In this document: one piece after another, positions 1 through 35,524 of the stretch
How positions within the stretch are numbered: the stretch's first letter is position 1
Layout: every line of letters begins with the position of its first letter
Source of the DNA: a virus
Reading direction: 5' to 3' (one strand)
IMG/VR virus record: IMGVR_UViG_3300031629_000028
Location: 1 to 35,524 of that record
Length of the DNA: 35,524 nucleotides
Notes under the pieces: generated by a model
Told to the model about the DNA's origin: nothing
Databases searched by the model: none
The model's input: the letters and a program-made list of their open reading frames with translations, nothing else
Translations under genes and position numbers: made by a program

Positions 1-127
1 CGACGCTTGACGCAGTTATCTGGTCTAGTGCAGATGGCACTGTCTGGATCAGCCACACGGCCTTCACGCAGGCCACAGGCGCGACTACAGCCCTTAAATC
101 ACTAGCTAACTTCGGACGCTTTATCAG
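1..127. repeat. terminal direct repeat, left copy (circular contig overlap)
   Basis: Bases 1-127 are identical to bases 35398-35524. The repeat lies inside a coding sequence that is completed only when the two ends are joined. An odd length of 127 matches a common assembler k-mer size, so it is best read as the overlap of a circular assembly and not as a biological terminal repeat. The non-redundant genome length is 35,397 bp. Confidence 0.95.
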
Positions 128-14806: not shown

Positions 14807-15065
14807 CTATAATACCCTTTCCTTGATCGACGTTGTCCACAACGAAAACTTCAAACCCAGTCTTGCTAATAGTTTGAGCTACCAGGTTCTGCAGATTTGT
14901 AGGTTTCTTACCCTTAGCTTTAAATTCTATGAACATCATCTTATGTTGCCGCATAAAAATACGGTCGGGAACACCACGGTTTGATGGACTGACGAATTTA
15001 AACGTCACCCAATCAAATTTCTTAGCGTAGTCACAGACTTTTTTTTCAATTTCTTTTTCTAACAT
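14790..15065 (-). CDS. VRR-NUC domain nuclease
   Basis: A 91-aa stand-alone VRR-NUC protein. I take ATG 15065 as start since it overlaps the previous stop and has AGGT upstream; ATG 15086 would add seven residues. The fold motifs are present: E3/E6 in the N-terminal helix, GVPDRIF (about 35-41) with the catalytic Asp, and FIEFKAKGKKPTNLQ (about 49-63) with the E-x-K pair. Such nucleases cut branched DNA and are usually encoded next to SNF2 helicases in phages, as here. Confidence 0.88.
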   Translation of the reverse strand: MLEKEIEKKVCDYAKKFDWVTFKFVSPSNRGVPDRIFMRQHKMMFIEFKAKGKKPTNLQNLVAQTISKTGFEVFVVDNVDQGKGIIDAYTK

Positions 15066-15481
15066 GTCAATACCTGTATCCCGCATTTATTCAAAAGGTC
15101 TACTGCTTTCTGATCGTAAATGGTGCGACACACCACTTTGATGCAGCTGCTATTGGCAATCAATTTAGCGCAACTCATGCACGGAGATGTGCTGACGAAA
15201 ATGGTGTCAACGTCATTAGGTCTACGACACTGGATCAAAGCATTCTGCTCTGCATGAGTAGACAGACACGCGTCAAGACCTTCACCAGTATCGTATCCCT
15301 CCCCACCACATGGAGTGTCTGTGCAGTGGGGATAACCTTTAGGAACGCCATTAAATCCTGTGGCAATGATGTGGCTAACGTCGTCTACGATAACGCAACC
15401 AACTTGACGCCTAGAACACGTAGCCCGTGTTGCTATAACATCGACGATTTTCATCATGTATTCGTTAAACGATTCTCTCAC
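15059..15481 (-). CDS. deoxycytidylate (dCMP) deaminase
   Basis: A 140-aa zinc deaminase that converts dCMP to dUMP. Zinc ligands and catalytic Glu are H76 and E78 in STHAEQNAL and C101/C104 in SPCMSC. The N terminus FNEYMMKIVDVIATRATCSR and the FNGVPKGY loop are characteristic of dCMP deaminases. It starts at GTG 15481 in a GTGA overlap; the family's N-terminal helix supports this over the inner ATG at 15457. Together with the pyrophosphohydrolase and the thymidylate-synthase-fold enzyme it controls the pyrimidine nucleotide supply. Confidence 0.92.
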   Translation of the reverse strand: MRESFNEYMMKIVDVIATRATCSRRQVGCVIVDDVSHIIATGFNGVPKGYPHCTDTPCGGEGYDTGEGLDACLSTHAEQNALIQCRRPNDVDTIFVSTSPCMSCAKLIANSSCIKVVCRTIYDQKAVDLLNKCGIQVLTC

Positions 15482-16329
15482 AGCTCACCCCCAAGATCCT
15501 GCCAGTTATCACTAGACGTCCATTGTCCTTCCAGGTCATCCAGAGGAATAAATTTACGTTCATATCCAGGCTTAGCTACACTGATCTGCCATAGGTTGTT
15601 ACGAGATCCCTGTGGGAACAGAGGAGCAAACATGATAGCCAACACGTTGGTATCGTAGTACTCTCTCAGGCTGTTGAATATAGTCAATTGATGTTCATCC
15701 ATCAAATCTTTGTAGTCACGAATTGATGCAAACGTACCCCAGTTGCCATCAATTTGAAAACCTAGGTCCTCAATAAGACCACCTAGAGCATCCCGAGTGA
15801 TTTCATTGGGGTGATTACCAGCAGAACCGACCCTCTCGTCATAGCAGGGAGTTGAGATGAATGTGGTTGTAGTCTCTTTTGATATATCGAGCATCCCTTC
15901 GAGCATATACCTGGTCACACTTGGCTCAACATGCTCAAGGACTTCGAAGCTCGTGATGACATCAGGCTTGTCGTACACCTTACCACCGACCTCGTATTGA
16001 TCGTCTGTGATTGTGAAGCTAGATGGAAACAGGGTAGAACCATGTAGATCAGCCGGCATCTTACCGAAATTGAAGTCCTTAAATTCTTTGTTAGCGTCAA
16101 CACCGACGTACTGTTTAACAACGAGACGGTTTGAAAATAGTGTCCTGCCCATTGGGGTTTCTTTACCACAACCAACATCTAGGACGCTGCATTCTTTATA
16201 CCGACCTTTGACATGCAACCACTTAGCCACGTGGGACCAACGGAAGCAGTGGGCAATATAGTCGCGATGGATTAGACCACGCTCTTCGGCGAGATTTATA
16301 GACAGGTGGGTCTTATCGACTTTTGTCAT
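15478..16329 (-). CDS. class I SAM-dependent methyltransferase
   Basis: A 283-aa Rossmann methyltransferase. Motif I VLDVGCGKE (49-57), acidic motif II VGVDAN (75-80) and the post-motif segment VITSFEVLEHVEPS (124-137) are clear. There is no NPPY/DPPY-type motif, so it is not a conventional adenine or C4-cytosine DNA methylase, nor does it show the PC motif of C5 enzymes. The substrate is unknown. Its place between a hydroxymethylase-like enzyme and dCMP deaminase suggests work on nucleotides or on modified bases. A good AAGGAT ribosome site precedes the ATG. Confidence 0.85.
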   Translation of the reverse strand: MTKVDKTHLSINLAEERGLIHRDYIAHCFRWSHVAKWLHVKGRYKECSVLDVGCGKETPMGRTLFSNRLVVKQYVGVDANKEFKDFNFGKMPADLHGSTLFPSSFTITDDQYEVGGKVYDKPDVITSFEVLEHVEPSVTRYMLEGMLDISKETTTTFISTPCYDERVGSAGNHPNEITRDALGGLIEDLGFQIDGNWGTFASIRDYKDLMDEHQLTIFNSLREYYDTNVLAIMFAPLFPQGSRNNLWQISVAKPGYERKFIPLDDLEGQWTSSDNWQDLGGEL

Positions 16330-16330
16330 T

Positions 16331-16987
16331 TTAGCTATCCTTTATAAGATTGAAGTGTCTTGCGTAGACATGAATTGAAGCGGCGTTCCAGTAAAGGTTG
16401 CCCAGTTTAAGCTCTGGGTATTCCATTTTTAAACTGGCCAAGCATTTCTTATGAACGTGATCATGCCAGAACCTGTCATTTTTATACCCAAAAACAGCAT
16501 CAGACGAGCGCATATACACCATGTAGTGGAGTTGACTATCGCGAATTAGGAGCTGTGTAGACATCGTGCACATGAAATCGTGCATGCCGTTTTTGTTGGC
16601 ATCCTCATGCATCGTGGGTCTAGTATATATCATCTGAGCTTGCCTGGAGAACTTGTCTGATCTTAAGGTATCCACAGCAGAATGTAATTGGTTATGATTT
16701 TCGTCTGAGAAAATACACCAACCGTAGTTGCTGTTTATTAGACCATGTTCGTCTGACACATCCTGCCAGATTTTAGGGATAGGATCCCCTAGACCGTTGA
16801 CATTAAGATTTTGAGAATAGTACCACTGTAATTCTCTCATAGCGTATTTAGAATTTAATGTTCCGAATATGGTTTTCTCATCAGCGATAAAACTGGCGTT
16901 GATGATTTCAATAGTCGCGTTCTCAGCAAACGTCTTAGATGCAAACTTCAAACGAAACTCGTCGCGGATGTCAGCTGTTTTTTGCAT
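16331..16987 (-). CDS. thymidylate-synthase-fold enzyme, probable dCMP hydroxymethylase
   Basis: A 218-aa protein. ATG 16987 is chosen: GAGA upstream and only 17 bp overlap with the previous gene (ATG 17044 would overlap by 74 bp). Family signatures are ELQWYYSQNLNV (52-63), SRQAQMIYTRPTMHED (114-129), nucleophile Cys140, and QLHYMVYMRSSDAVFGYKND (152-171). The C140-to-R160 spacing equals C146-to-R166 in E. coli ThyA. The position equivalent to ThyA Asn177 is Asp171. Asp at that position marks dCMP-using enzymes such as T4 gp42 dCMP hydroxymethylase. It probably makes hydroxymethyl-dCMP; plain dTMP synthesis is not excluded. Confidence 0.8.
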   Translation of the reverse strand: MQKTADIRDEFRLKFASKTFAENATIEIINASFIADEKTIFGTLNSKYAMRELQWYYSQNLNVNGLGDPIPKIWQDVSDEHGLINSNYGWCIFSDENHNQLHSAVDTLRSDKFSRQAQMIYTRPTMHEDANKNGMHDFMCTMSTQLLIRDSQLHYMVYMRSSDAVFGYKNDRFWHDHVHKKCLASLKMEYPELKLGNLYWNAASIHVYARHFNLIKDS

Positions 16988-17249
16988 TTTTGTTCTCAAT
17001 ATATTCTTTGAGTAAACGGGAGTAACCTTCCATATCGACAGCATTGTCTACATACATGGGATCTCCGCAAACCATACGAGAGATCTTGTGGAAGATCATG
17101 TGGATGCATTCAATGTGAGAGCTCGAAAGATTGTCGTAGCTAGGAGTATTTTTTATCACACGCATCAGAGCCTGGGTGGTCATCGCATTGATTTCCATGG
17201 AGCCATACCGACTTCCACGTTCTTCAAGAATCTTTTCAACGTTGTCCAT
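16971..17249 (-). CDS. DUF6378-like phage protein
   Basis: A 92-aa helical protein. The pattern ILEERGSRYGSMEINAMTTQ (7-26), then SSSHIECIHMIFHKISRMVCGDPMYVDNAVDMEGYSRLL, is that of small phage proteins grouped as DUF6378 (name from memory), which often sit with nucleotide-metabolism genes. The invariant-looking H-x-I-F-x-K-x-x-R and GDP-x-Y-x-DN segments suggest a metal or ligand site. It starts in a TAATG overlap with the MazG-like gene. The biochemical role is unknown. Confidence 0.75.
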   Translation of the reverse strand: MDNVEKILEERGSRYGSMEINAMTTQALMRVIKNTPSYDNLSSSHIECIHMIFHKISRMVCGDPMYVDNAVDMEGYSRLLKEYIENKNAKNS

Positions 17250-17623
17250 TAGAACATCTCCAATTGATTGTTTACGAGATCAGAATGGTCAGGAGCTTCC
17301 CAACCTTCAGGCTTAACGAGATCAATGGCAAAAGAACCGCGTTTGCTGTTGGGTCCAATTTCTTTTTTCATGTTAGCATTCATAACGCGTTCAAAAGCAA
17401 CTGCAAACACTGGCATCAAACCCTGGCGCTCAGCTGTACCGAGAGCGAAAACAACAAGGTCTACCAAAGCATCGAGCTCGTCTTCAAGAGTTGTGGATGC
17501 TTGATATTCATACAGCTCTTCTTGCAAGCAGTCAATACGGAACACTTTCTCTTCGGCTGACCATTTAATGTCACCGGTACTAATATCGAAGTGGTTATGC
17601 ATGGTGAGTATCTGGTTAATCAT
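17249..17623 (-). CDS. MazG/PRA-PH-like nucleotide pyrophosphohydrolase
   Basis: A 124-aa all-alpha NTP pyrophosphatase. The metal-binding helix pair is seen in CLQEELYEY (E35, E36, E39) and LEDELDALVDLVVFALGT (E49, D51, D55). The C-terminal part (VMNANMKKEIGPNSKRGSFA) carries the Lys/Arg-rich substrate loop typical of the phage group. These enzymes cut NTPs or dNTPs to monophosphates. Next to dCMP deaminase and a hydroxymethylase-like enzyme, dCTP or dUTP are the likely substrates, comparable in role to T4 gp56 (an inference). It starts in an ATGA overlap with the polymerase gene. Confidence 0.82.
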   Translation of the reverse strand: MINQILTMHNHFDISTGDIKWSAEEKVFRIDCLQEELYEYQASTTLEDELDALVDLVVFALGTAERQGLMPVFAVAFERVMNANMKKEIGPNSKRGSFAIDLVKPEGWEAPDHSDLVNNQLEMF

Positions 17624-19416
17624 AATCCTAATCCTCCTAAGATTTCATCGGATAAGTGGTTGTAGTGGTCGTAGTTAATATCGTCAGGGAAGCTACCCAA
17701 TTCCATTATCGGTCTAGCGCCGTCAGAGTTGGCGACCTTATTACCTGTTTTCTTGTAGGTAATCTTGTCGCCAGATGTTGAGAAAATCCATCGAACAACT
17801 CGTCCTAGATATTCTCCTTTCCACACTGCCCCTCCGTTTACAGTCCGGACAGATAGGAATTTCGTAAGGTCTTCACAGTTGTGAATTGTTTCCCGTATAG
17901 GAATGTTATCCACAAGTAATTTTTCAACTGCCTCGATACAAATAGGAGCAACAGGATTTTTTGCTAAAGGATTTTGTGAGAAAATACCTTTTCCTTTTAC
18001 TCCGTCGTCTGTGACAGCCATATAGTTATTGACATCGCGGCTGTATAGAGCCTTATATTGGGTTTCTTCAAGCTCAAATGCTGTGTCCAATTCCCAGTCA
18101 AAACAGATATTGTCGTACATCTTGTAGTCAAGCGGTTGTATGAGAGACACAAAGCCGTCGGTGTTGGCCGATACGACCTGGATACCGTCATCCTCAAGAC
18201 GTTCGATCAACATAAGCAGAGCTAGCTGACCTGTCAACGTCACGGTCATCATAAGGTCAGGGCTGTATAGTACTGAGTACTTGTTGCCGAGCTTACCGAA
18301 GCTCCCGTTGACGACAATCTTAAGACTTTCCGCAATAATCTTTTGACCTGCAGACTTAGCAGCAAGGCGCCTATTCACGATGTCTTCATACACCGTTAGA
18401 AACTCAGGACCCAGGTGTCTAGGTGTCAAGCCGAGGTTCAGTATTATCCTTGGGTAGTATGACGCAACGTCACGATCGGCCAGCACTTGGTTCTTATTAG
18501 GGATGATGGTTTGACTTTTTTCTTTCGAATGCAAACCACCTATCCCTAATTGATACACTGAATTGCCGATTTTGATTTTCATCTGCTTAAGTTCTTTAGG
18601 TAACTCAATAGAACCCTTGTCATTTAGCTCGAAATCAGCACCTAGGATGAGTTCTAGCGTGTGTCTGAGTACATCTGATTTGAATTCTATATAAGCTGGT
18701 GCGGTATACTTGAAAGACACCCCAGTCATCATATTTGGAGCCTTATATCTGCCTCTAGGATTACGTTTTTGCAGCTCCCGTTTGATAACAGCCTCAGCAA
18801 TCTGGGCGTCTGATTTACTCATCAGGTCCATGCCGTATTCTTCTGACATGTCGACGCGTAGTTGCATTTGAGGCTTGATACGGTTATACAGGTCAATGTT
18901 GGTATTCAGATCATTGATACAATACTCTTTGATGTCGTCCATCTGAGCCTCTGTCAACATAGTTCCTGGCTCTATGGGCAAATCCTGCAGTCTCTTGCTG
19001 TGCATCCTGCCACCGTATAACTTCAGACTGACCTTAACACCTGGAGCAGGCTCTTGAATGTCAAAGTGTTTCCACTCGCGTGGTAAATGAAGAGAGAATT
19101 TCTGAAGTGTTTGCCACCCGTGTGAGTTGCCTGTGATGATATACTCGGAAATTCTGTAGATGTCGTTGCAAGTCTTGCTCTGCTCAGCTGCGATAATAAC
19201 AGGGATGTCGTAGTTCCTAGAATTGAAACCAAACGTTGTTCGCTTGTACATGAGTGAGTTTAGACGTTTACGGTCTTCTATAGATATATGGGTATTCTTA
19301 CCACGGGTCTCAATGGTGACAATCTTACCATCGGACAACCGTTTGAATGCAACTAAGAAGTAGTTGGGGTAGACTTCGCAGTCTAAGGTAACCGGATCAT
19401 CAAGGGAAAATTGCAT
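17620..19416 (-). CDS. family B DNA polymerase with 3'-5' exonuclease
   Basis: A 598-aa polymerase. Exonuclease motifs are ExoI D12/E14 (LDCEVYP), ExoII N65-x4-D70 (FNSRNYD) and ExoIII Y165/D169 (YCIND). Polymerase motif A is D316-x-x-S-x-Y-P (DVASYYP), motif B K366-x3-N370-x3-G374 (KIVVNGSFG), motif C SANTDG with catalytic D420. The usual first Asp of motif C is Asn418, which spares the metal-binding Asp. A GGLHS loop (293-297) lies between the exo and pol domains. It is compact and shows no obvious TPR insertions of protein-primed enzymes. It should be the replicative polymerase, working with the DUF2815 protein and the primase-helicase. Confidence 0.9.
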   Translation of the reverse strand: MQFSLDDPVTLDCEVYPNYFLVAFKRLSDGKIVTIETRGKNTHISIEDRKRLNSLMYKRTTFGFNSRNYDIPVIIAAEQSKTCNDIYRISEYIITGNSHGWQTLQKFSLHLPREWKHFDIQEPAPGVKVSLKLYGGRMHSKRLQDLPIEPGTMLTEAQMDDIKEYCINDLNTNIDLYNRIKPQMQLRVDMSEEYGMDLMSKSDAQIAEAVIKRELQKRNPRGRYKAPNMMTGVSFKYTAPAYIEFKSDVLRHTLELILGADFELNDKGSIELPKELKQMKIKIGNSVYQLGIGGLHSKEKSQTIIPNKNQVLADRDVASYYPRIILNLGLTPRHLGPEFLTVYEDIVNRRLAAKSAGQKIIAESLKIVVNGSFGKLGNKYSVLYSPDLMMTVTLTGQLALLMLIERLEDDGIQVVSANTDGFVSLIQPLDYKMYDNICFDWELDTAFELEETQYKALYSRDVNNYMAVTDDGVKGKGIFSQNPLAKNPVAPICIEAVEKLLVDNIPIRETIHNCEDLTKFLSVRTVNGGAVWKGEYLGRVVRWIFSTSGDKITYKKTGNKVANSDGARPIMELGSFPDDINYDHYNHLSDEILGGLGL

Positions 19417-35258: not shown

Positions 35259-35524
35259 ATGGATAAAAACCAGCAATTCGATGTAATTACAAACGCCGCA
35301 GCCTTAGCCGCGACAGCAACCGGCAACGCCATTGACGTTGGTGGCGCAACTGTTCTGGACATCTACCTGTCCGTTACAGCGGTGTCAGGTACGTCTCCGA
35401 CGCTTGACGCAGTTATCTGGTCTAGTGCAGATGGCACTGTCTGGATCAGCCACACGGCCTTCACGCAGGCCACAGGCGCGACTACAGCCCTTAAATCACT
35501 AGCTAACTTCGGACGCTTTATCAG
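35259..35524 (+). CDS. small virion-type protein, 5' part (continues at position 1)
   Basis: Start ATG 35259, with AAGGA upstream. The frame is open to the window end and, because the last 127 bases repeat the first 127, continues at 128 to the stop at 195-197. The full product is 111 aa (MDKNQQFDVITNAAALAATA at the N terminus). It is beta-rich with low charge and probably structural. See the 1-197 entry. Confidence 0.85.
   Translation, partial: MDKNQQFDVITNAAALAATATGNAIDVGGATVLDIYLSVTAVSGTSPTLDAVIWSSADGTVWISHTAFTQATGATTALKSLANFGRFI
35398..35524. repeat. terminal direct repeat, right copy (circular contig overlap)
   Basis: This is the second copy of bases 1-127, ending at the last base of the window. 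Joining position 35397 to position 1 restores one continuous reading frame (35259 through 197), which supports circular closure. The true packaging ends of the virion DNA (cos, pac or terminal repeats) cannot be read from it. Confidence 0.95.

Follow-up and report, generated by a model that had tools for sequence, protein, structure and literature searches.

A predicted gp42-type deoxycytidylate hydroxymethylase and a linked methyltransferase in a small uncultivated phage

We found that a gene in the window, which is the whole stretch of 35,524 bases analysed here (IMG/VR virus record IMGVR_UViG_3300031629_000028), very probably encodes a deoxycytidylate 5-hydroxymethyltransferase of the gp42 type of phage T4, as judged from its sequence, active-site residues, modelled fold and gene context. 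The gene lies on the minus strand at 16331..16987 (ATG at 16987, stop at 16331) and encodes 218 aa; a plus-strand reading of the same interval was ruled out by the many stops throughout. By its sequence, the enzyme belongs to a known family, to which it adds a new member. A small uncultivated 35-kb phage, with no near-identical phages in GenBank, thereby joins the phages in which hydroxymethylcytosine is expected in place of cytosine. We infer hydroxymethylcytosine in the virion DNA of this phage, and the enzyme probably serves to shield that DNA from host restriction.

When the window enzyme was used in a PDB sequence search, the best match was T4 dCMP hydroxymethylase (E 1.1e-57), and thymidylate synthases were matched at E 2.3e-7 to ~1e-5; the Pfam family Thymidylat_synt was matched at E 1.5e-16. 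Identity to T4 gp42 was 44-46% (45.8% by tblastn), identity to E. coli ThyA was 20-21%, and the best matches among phage records by tblastn were the gp42 proteins of T4-like phages (44-52% identity). Single-sequence scans of viral contigs returned one relative each, and alignment queries were needed to recover relatives. An AlphaFold model built from 31 related sequences reached a pLDDT of 96, and Foldseek matched it to 1b49 (T4 dCMP hydroxymethylase) with a TM-score of 0.95 and an rmsd of 1.5 A, compared with TM-scores of 0.76 for MilA and ~0.7 for ThyA. Furthermore, a maximum-likelihood tree placed the window enzyme inside the gp42 clade (support 100/99) with an environmental protein, L008, as its sister, and placed ThyA, in a separate clade, and SPO1 gp29 well apart from it; the branches of SPO1 gp29 and of the Microbacterium protein are long, and the positions of these two are unsure. 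The earlier note had proposed a probable dCMP hydroxymethylase and a comparison of a structure model with T4 gp42 and ThyA; the model sides with the T4 enzyme, and the proposal is borne out by the nearest homologue (T4 gp42, not ThyA), the fold, the tree and the signature residues described below.

The same note had started from the spacing between Cys140 and Arg160, which it equated with that between ThyA C146 and R166, and had mapped ThyA Asn177 to Asp171. Both points hold: the spacing is 20 residues, and when the window enzyme was aligned with T4 gp42 and E. coli ThyA, Asp171 shared a column with T4 D179 and ThyA N177, and Cys140 shared one with C148/C146. No true Asn was found at ThyA position 177, where the window enzyme has Asp171; this is unambiguous despite the adjacent Asn170 because T4 has the same Asn-Asp pair (R177-N-D179). 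The Asp at the T4-179 column was invariant in 86 of the 86 gp42-like relatives examined, and Asn occurred only in ThyA. As calculated from the ORF start, the minus-strand codons lie at 16475..16477 for Asp171 (T4 Asp179, ThyA Asn177), the base-selecting residue, at 16568..16570 for Cys140 (T4 Cys148), the catalytic nucleophile, and at 16577..16579 for Asp137 (T4 Asp145), the reported water-activating residue of the hydroxymethylase signature (PMC6400193). Further aligned pairs with T4 gp42 are S86=S94, Y88=Y96, T141=T149, E52=E60, R115=R123 and S161=S169, and H206 and Y208 are also matched. The sole departure among the phosphate ligands is Gln116, which replaces T4 Arg124, a second phosphate ligand; Gln is the commonest residue in this column among the relatives (54/87).

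The presence of a dCMP deaminase gene two genes downstream, and the label 'thymidylate synthase' that annotation pipelines give to relatives, would suit an ordinary thymidylate synthase that converts dUMP to dTMP with the deaminase supplying dUMP. This is extremely improbable, as the window enzyme has Asp171 and not Asn, Asp137 and not Leu, and Thr141 and not His, shares only the low identity with ThyA given above, and falls outside the ThyA clade. It lacks both ThyA Asn177 and the ThyA-like C-terminal tail that closes over the folate, and the protein ends 12 residues past His206. In addition, the D179N mutation in T4 gp42 lowered kcat on dCMP ~3600-fold (PMC6400193), which ties the Asp to the use of dCMP.

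Asp alone says only that the enzyme is of the dCMP type and leaves the product unsettled, because the single Asn-to-Asp change N177D turns ThyA into a dCMP methylase, according to work cited within PMC8670742. An enzyme with such an Xp12-type activity would have the same fold and the same Asp, with hydride transfer ending the reaction to give 5-methyl-dCMP and 5-methylcytosine in DNA. We consider a methylase unlikely, since among characterised proteins the window enzyme is closest to the T4 hydroxymethylase. In the study of the T4 ternary complex, Asp145 (at Cys-3), Ser94 and Tyr96, together with the missing C-terminal tail, were described as the signature of hydroxymethylation, and D145N abolished 5hm-dCMP production (PMC6400193). 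The counterparts of Asp137, Ser86 and Tyr88 are invariant across the gp42-like set, whereas ThyA has Leu and Pro/Tyr at these positions; these three residues argue for hydroxymethylation. A CMP (ribonucleotide) hydroxymethylase like MilA, with a role outside DNA metabolism, was also considered: MilA carries the base-selecting Asp (PMC5175136) and ranks second as a fold match. However, deoxy-specific enzymes carry Arg and Ser at two positions that are Lys and Ala in the MilA type (PMC5175136), and the window enzyme has Arg115 and Ser161 as in T4. These two residues argue for a deoxy substrate, and we give the MilA-like reading hardly any weight.

As a dCMP hydroxymethylase, the enzyme would use Cys140 to attack C6 of dCMP, with Asp171 holding the cytosine ring at N3 and protonating it. 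The one-carbon unit would come from methylene-tetrahydrofolate, and water activated by Asp137 would add to the exocyclic methylene to yield 5-hydroxymethyl-dCMP. This nucleotide would then be phosphorylated by a host kinase or by one not recognised in the window, and the phage DNA polymerase would incorporate it, so that cytosine in the genome may be partly or fully 5-hydroxymethylcytosine and the DNA resistant to many restriction enzymes.

The gene context agrees in several respects with such a pathway. The window ends in identical 127-bp direct repeats (1..127 and 35398..35524), and the gene list is therefore probably complete for a genome of ~35.4 kb. A minus-strand run comprises genes for a DNA polymerase, a MazG-like protein, a DUF6378-like protein, the hydroxymethylase, a methyltransferase, a dCMP deaminase, a VRR nuclease and an SNF2 helicase, and is tight around the hydroxymethylase (intergenic gaps of -28 to +1 nt). 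The predicted polymerase (17620..19416, minus strand; phrog_1252, E 7.5e-189) would have to accept hm-dCTP. The MazG-like nucleotide pyrophosphohydrolase (17249..17623, minus strand; 124 aa; phrog_671/18404) has the EELYE...ELD family motif and a weak PDB match to MazG-like enzymes; as a candidate dCTPase in the role of T4 gp56, it may reduce the pool of dCTP and provide dCMP. The dCMP deaminase gene (15059..15481, minus strand; PF00383, E 7.6e-20; phrog_174, E 4.9e-40) has a 4-nt overlap with the methyltransferase gene. In the set of loci retrieved with the closest hydroxymethylases, the MazG-like gene was present in 70, the deaminase in 51 and DUF6378 in 33, and the operon context of MazG-like and dCMP deaminase genes recurs in most relatives. 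The gene for the DUF6378-like small protein (16971..17249, minus strand) shares 17 nt with the start of the hydroxymethylase gene, and its conservation directly upstream of the hydroxymethylase was observed in about 30 loci.

T4 requires gp1 for hm-dCMP. We detected neither a T4 gp1-type nor a thymidylate kinase in the window (phrog_139, phrog_761 and PF02223), and a pattern search gave no Walker A motif; phosphorylation of hm-dCMP would thus be left to the host or to an unrecognised kinase, because the window shows no nucleotide kinase of these families. Likewise, no match to the T4 glucosyltransferase families PF09198 or PF11440 was obtained in the window, other glycosyltransferase types falling outside these families, and no carbamoyltransferase was found in it; most of the remaining window frames were scanned with Pfam. 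The head genes are podovirus-like (SU10-type capsid and adaptor families), and Pseudomonas phage tf and EBPR podovirus 2 are examples of podoviruses among the relatives of the portal; judged by these genes, a podovirus morphology is plausible. Between the structural genes, a 175-aa protein encoded at 194-721 on the plus strand had no Pfam or PHROG match.

A class I SAM-dependent methyltransferase of 283 aa (METHYLTRANSFERASE) is encoded on the minus strand at 15478..16329, beginning 1 nt past the hydroxymethylase stop, and was recognised by Pfam Methyltransf_23. In a phage collection, five records matched the methyltransferase, corresponding to four phages (AXL3 is listed twice); in all of them a gene annotated as TS or pyrimidine hydroxymethylase lies close by, and Asp was present in 3/3 of the TS proteins aligned. 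An alignment-based scan of IMG/VR recovered 286 methyltransferase relatives, and the best 80 of these 286 were analysed for context. A TS-fold gene lay within 5.7 kb of the methyltransferase in 68 of these best 80, and at 66 of those 68 loci the best TS-fold match had Asp both at position 177 and at Cys-3. The other 12 of the 80 were all near a contig end, and the order methyltransferase, NTPase, kinase-like gene is still seen in the truncated block of most of these. A search of 84,980 genomes of bacteria and archaea yielded no more than four methyltransferase relatives. The first is followed directly downstream by an Asp-type gene, the second by the beginning of such a gene, cut off by the contig end; the contig of the third stops 0.2 kb past the methyltransferase, and the fourth is L177, described below. 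We found that, where enough sequence is available, the methyltransferase is confined to viruses with a dCMP-type hydroxymethylase, the association being one in related, unevenly sampled contigs.

Three loci were taken up as exceptions and rejected. L092 and L094, the remaining two of the 68 loci, have a ThyA near the methyltransferase, but both have an additional gene beside the block, with 282 bits for the Asp-type profile versus 54-57 for ThyA. L177 has no hydroxymethylase within 8 kb of the methyltransferase, but an Asp-type TS lies 58 kb from it on the same 306-kb contig. This contig (NHDW01000006, 306 kb), assigned to a Methylococcaceae bin, looks like a large phage, with repeated 'LREYIR' protein starts and an HNH gene.

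The hydroxymethylases linked to the methyltransferase fall in several separate clades of the tree, including a distant SPO1-gp29-like Asp-type clade, which indicates that the partner hydroxymethylase changed while the methyltransferase, about 45-70% identical across those clades, stayed. This linkage suggests a methylated derivative of hydroxymethylcytosine. The methyltransferase would probably belong to the hydroxymethylcytosine pathway as a tailoring enzyme, perhaps acting on the new hydroxymethyl group. A more specific proposal, which we put forward tentatively and hold to be possible rather than probable, is that the family is dedicated to pathways with a dCMP hydroxymethylase and that its substrate is hm-dCMP or hydroxymethylcytosine in DNA, methylated on the hydroxymethyl group or at another site, yielding for example 5-methoxymethylcytosine; a literature search for this base in phage DNA gave nothing relevant. 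The methylated atom is a guess, because the methyltransferase model (pLDDT 92) matched only generic class I methyltransferases in a fold search.

That generic fold match, together with the lack of a functional PHROGs match for the methyltransferase, would suit an enzyme that is unrelated to hydroxymethylcytosine (acting, for example, in host takeover or on RNA or glycan) and whose linkage reflects only common descent of a nucleotide-metabolism block, which we regard as a serious possibility, though somewhat short of an even chance. The converse of the association fails as well: the methyltransferase was present in only three loci near the closest hydroxymethylases, and the many hydroxymethylase loci that lack it imply that it is not needed for hydroxymethylcytosine. 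Against an unrelated function, the methyltransferase adjoins several separate hydroxymethylase clades while itself keeping the identity given above, and each replicon with context has a dCMP-type hydroxymethylase, once 58 kb off on a 306-kb contig. If the methyltransferase does act on hydroxymethylcytosine, it would add a further cap beside glucosyl, arabinosyl and carbamoyl groups, which would bear on restriction, Type IV restriction and CRISPR escape, and the enzyme might provide a new reagent for the detection of hydroxymethylcytosine.

Other genes were observed in the slot held by the methyltransferase in the window. Three clusters (L009:4772-5746, L039:4258-4996 and L037:6007-7170) start there, downstream of gp42-like hydroxymethylases, in 36/84, 32/84 and 27/84 loci, respectively. 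No Pfam family was found for them and their PHROG names were uninformative; they are candidates for further hydroxymethylcytosine-tailoring enzymes.

The search for relatives also showed that modification of cytosine is probable for many small phages in which a 'thymidylate synthase' is annotated. About 190 Microbacterium phage records (including OR253907; L006) matched the hydroxymethylase at E < 1e-8; the genomes listed are ~40 kb, the gene is annotated 'thymidylate synthase', and the one enzyme of this group that was aligned has both the base-selecting Asp and the Asp at Cys-3. In the SPO1-gp29-like TS clade (L088-L090, L171, L172 and L091-L169), each of the 50 members that were checked has Asp and not Asn at position 177, and the members of this Asp-type clade are, by this residue, probably dCMP hydroxymethylases. 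The cultured pelagiphages HTVC200P and HTVC119P carry genes related to this clade that are annotated as thymidylate synthase.

Among known systems, T4 gp42 (PDB 1b49, 1b5d and 6a9a) is closest to the window enzyme in identity (44-46%), fold (TM 0.95), catalytic and signature residues and the absence of the ThyA tail. The window enzyme differs in its shorter C-terminus (218 aa versus 246 aa in T4) and in having Gln116 for T4 Arg124 and Lys169 for T4 Arg177. Furthermore, the T4 pathway includes a kinase and glucosyltransferases, whereas in the window genome of ~35 kb neither T4 type was detected and a hydroxymethylase-linked methyltransferase is present instead. In the MetaGPA study, TS genes of the Asp177 type, together with the PRA-PH and dCMP-deaminase domains that co-occur with them, were associated with metavirome contigs whose cytosine was experimentally found to be modified (PMC8670742). 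The window shares with these contigs the base-selecting Asp and the PRA-PH/MazG-like and dCMP deaminase neighbours, but has a SAM methyltransferase and no carbamoyltransferase. The Kojivirus phages of Microbacterium (e.g. Guetzie, 39.8 kb) likewise have small genomes, which encode a gp42-like Asp-type enzyme under the label 'thymidylate synthase' and also carry MazG-like and thymidylate kinase genes; their enzyme differs in belonging to a long-branched lineage with 32-34% identity to the window enzyme.

The DNA of Stenotrophomonas phage AXL3 resisted 35 of 37 restriction enzymes, the two that cut having A/T-only sites (PMC7504290), a pattern that fits cytosine modification and fits modified guanine too. 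The authors of that work read AXL3 gp28 as a thymidylate synthase (PMC7504290); in our alignment gp28 carries the Asp, and AXL3 also has a separate ThyX-type gene. The AXL3 block gp27-gp31 resembles that of the window in containing a related methyltransferase (about 31%), an NTP pyrophosphohydrolase, the Asp-type TS homologue and a dCMP deaminase. It differs in that the TS homologue belongs to the SPO1-gp29-like clade (26-27% to the window enzyme) and in that AXL3 carries ThyX as well as a predicted thymidylate-kinase-like gene. With its restriction-resistant DNA and related gene block, the cultured AXL3 makes the proposed action of the methyltransferase on hydroxymethylcytosine directly testable.
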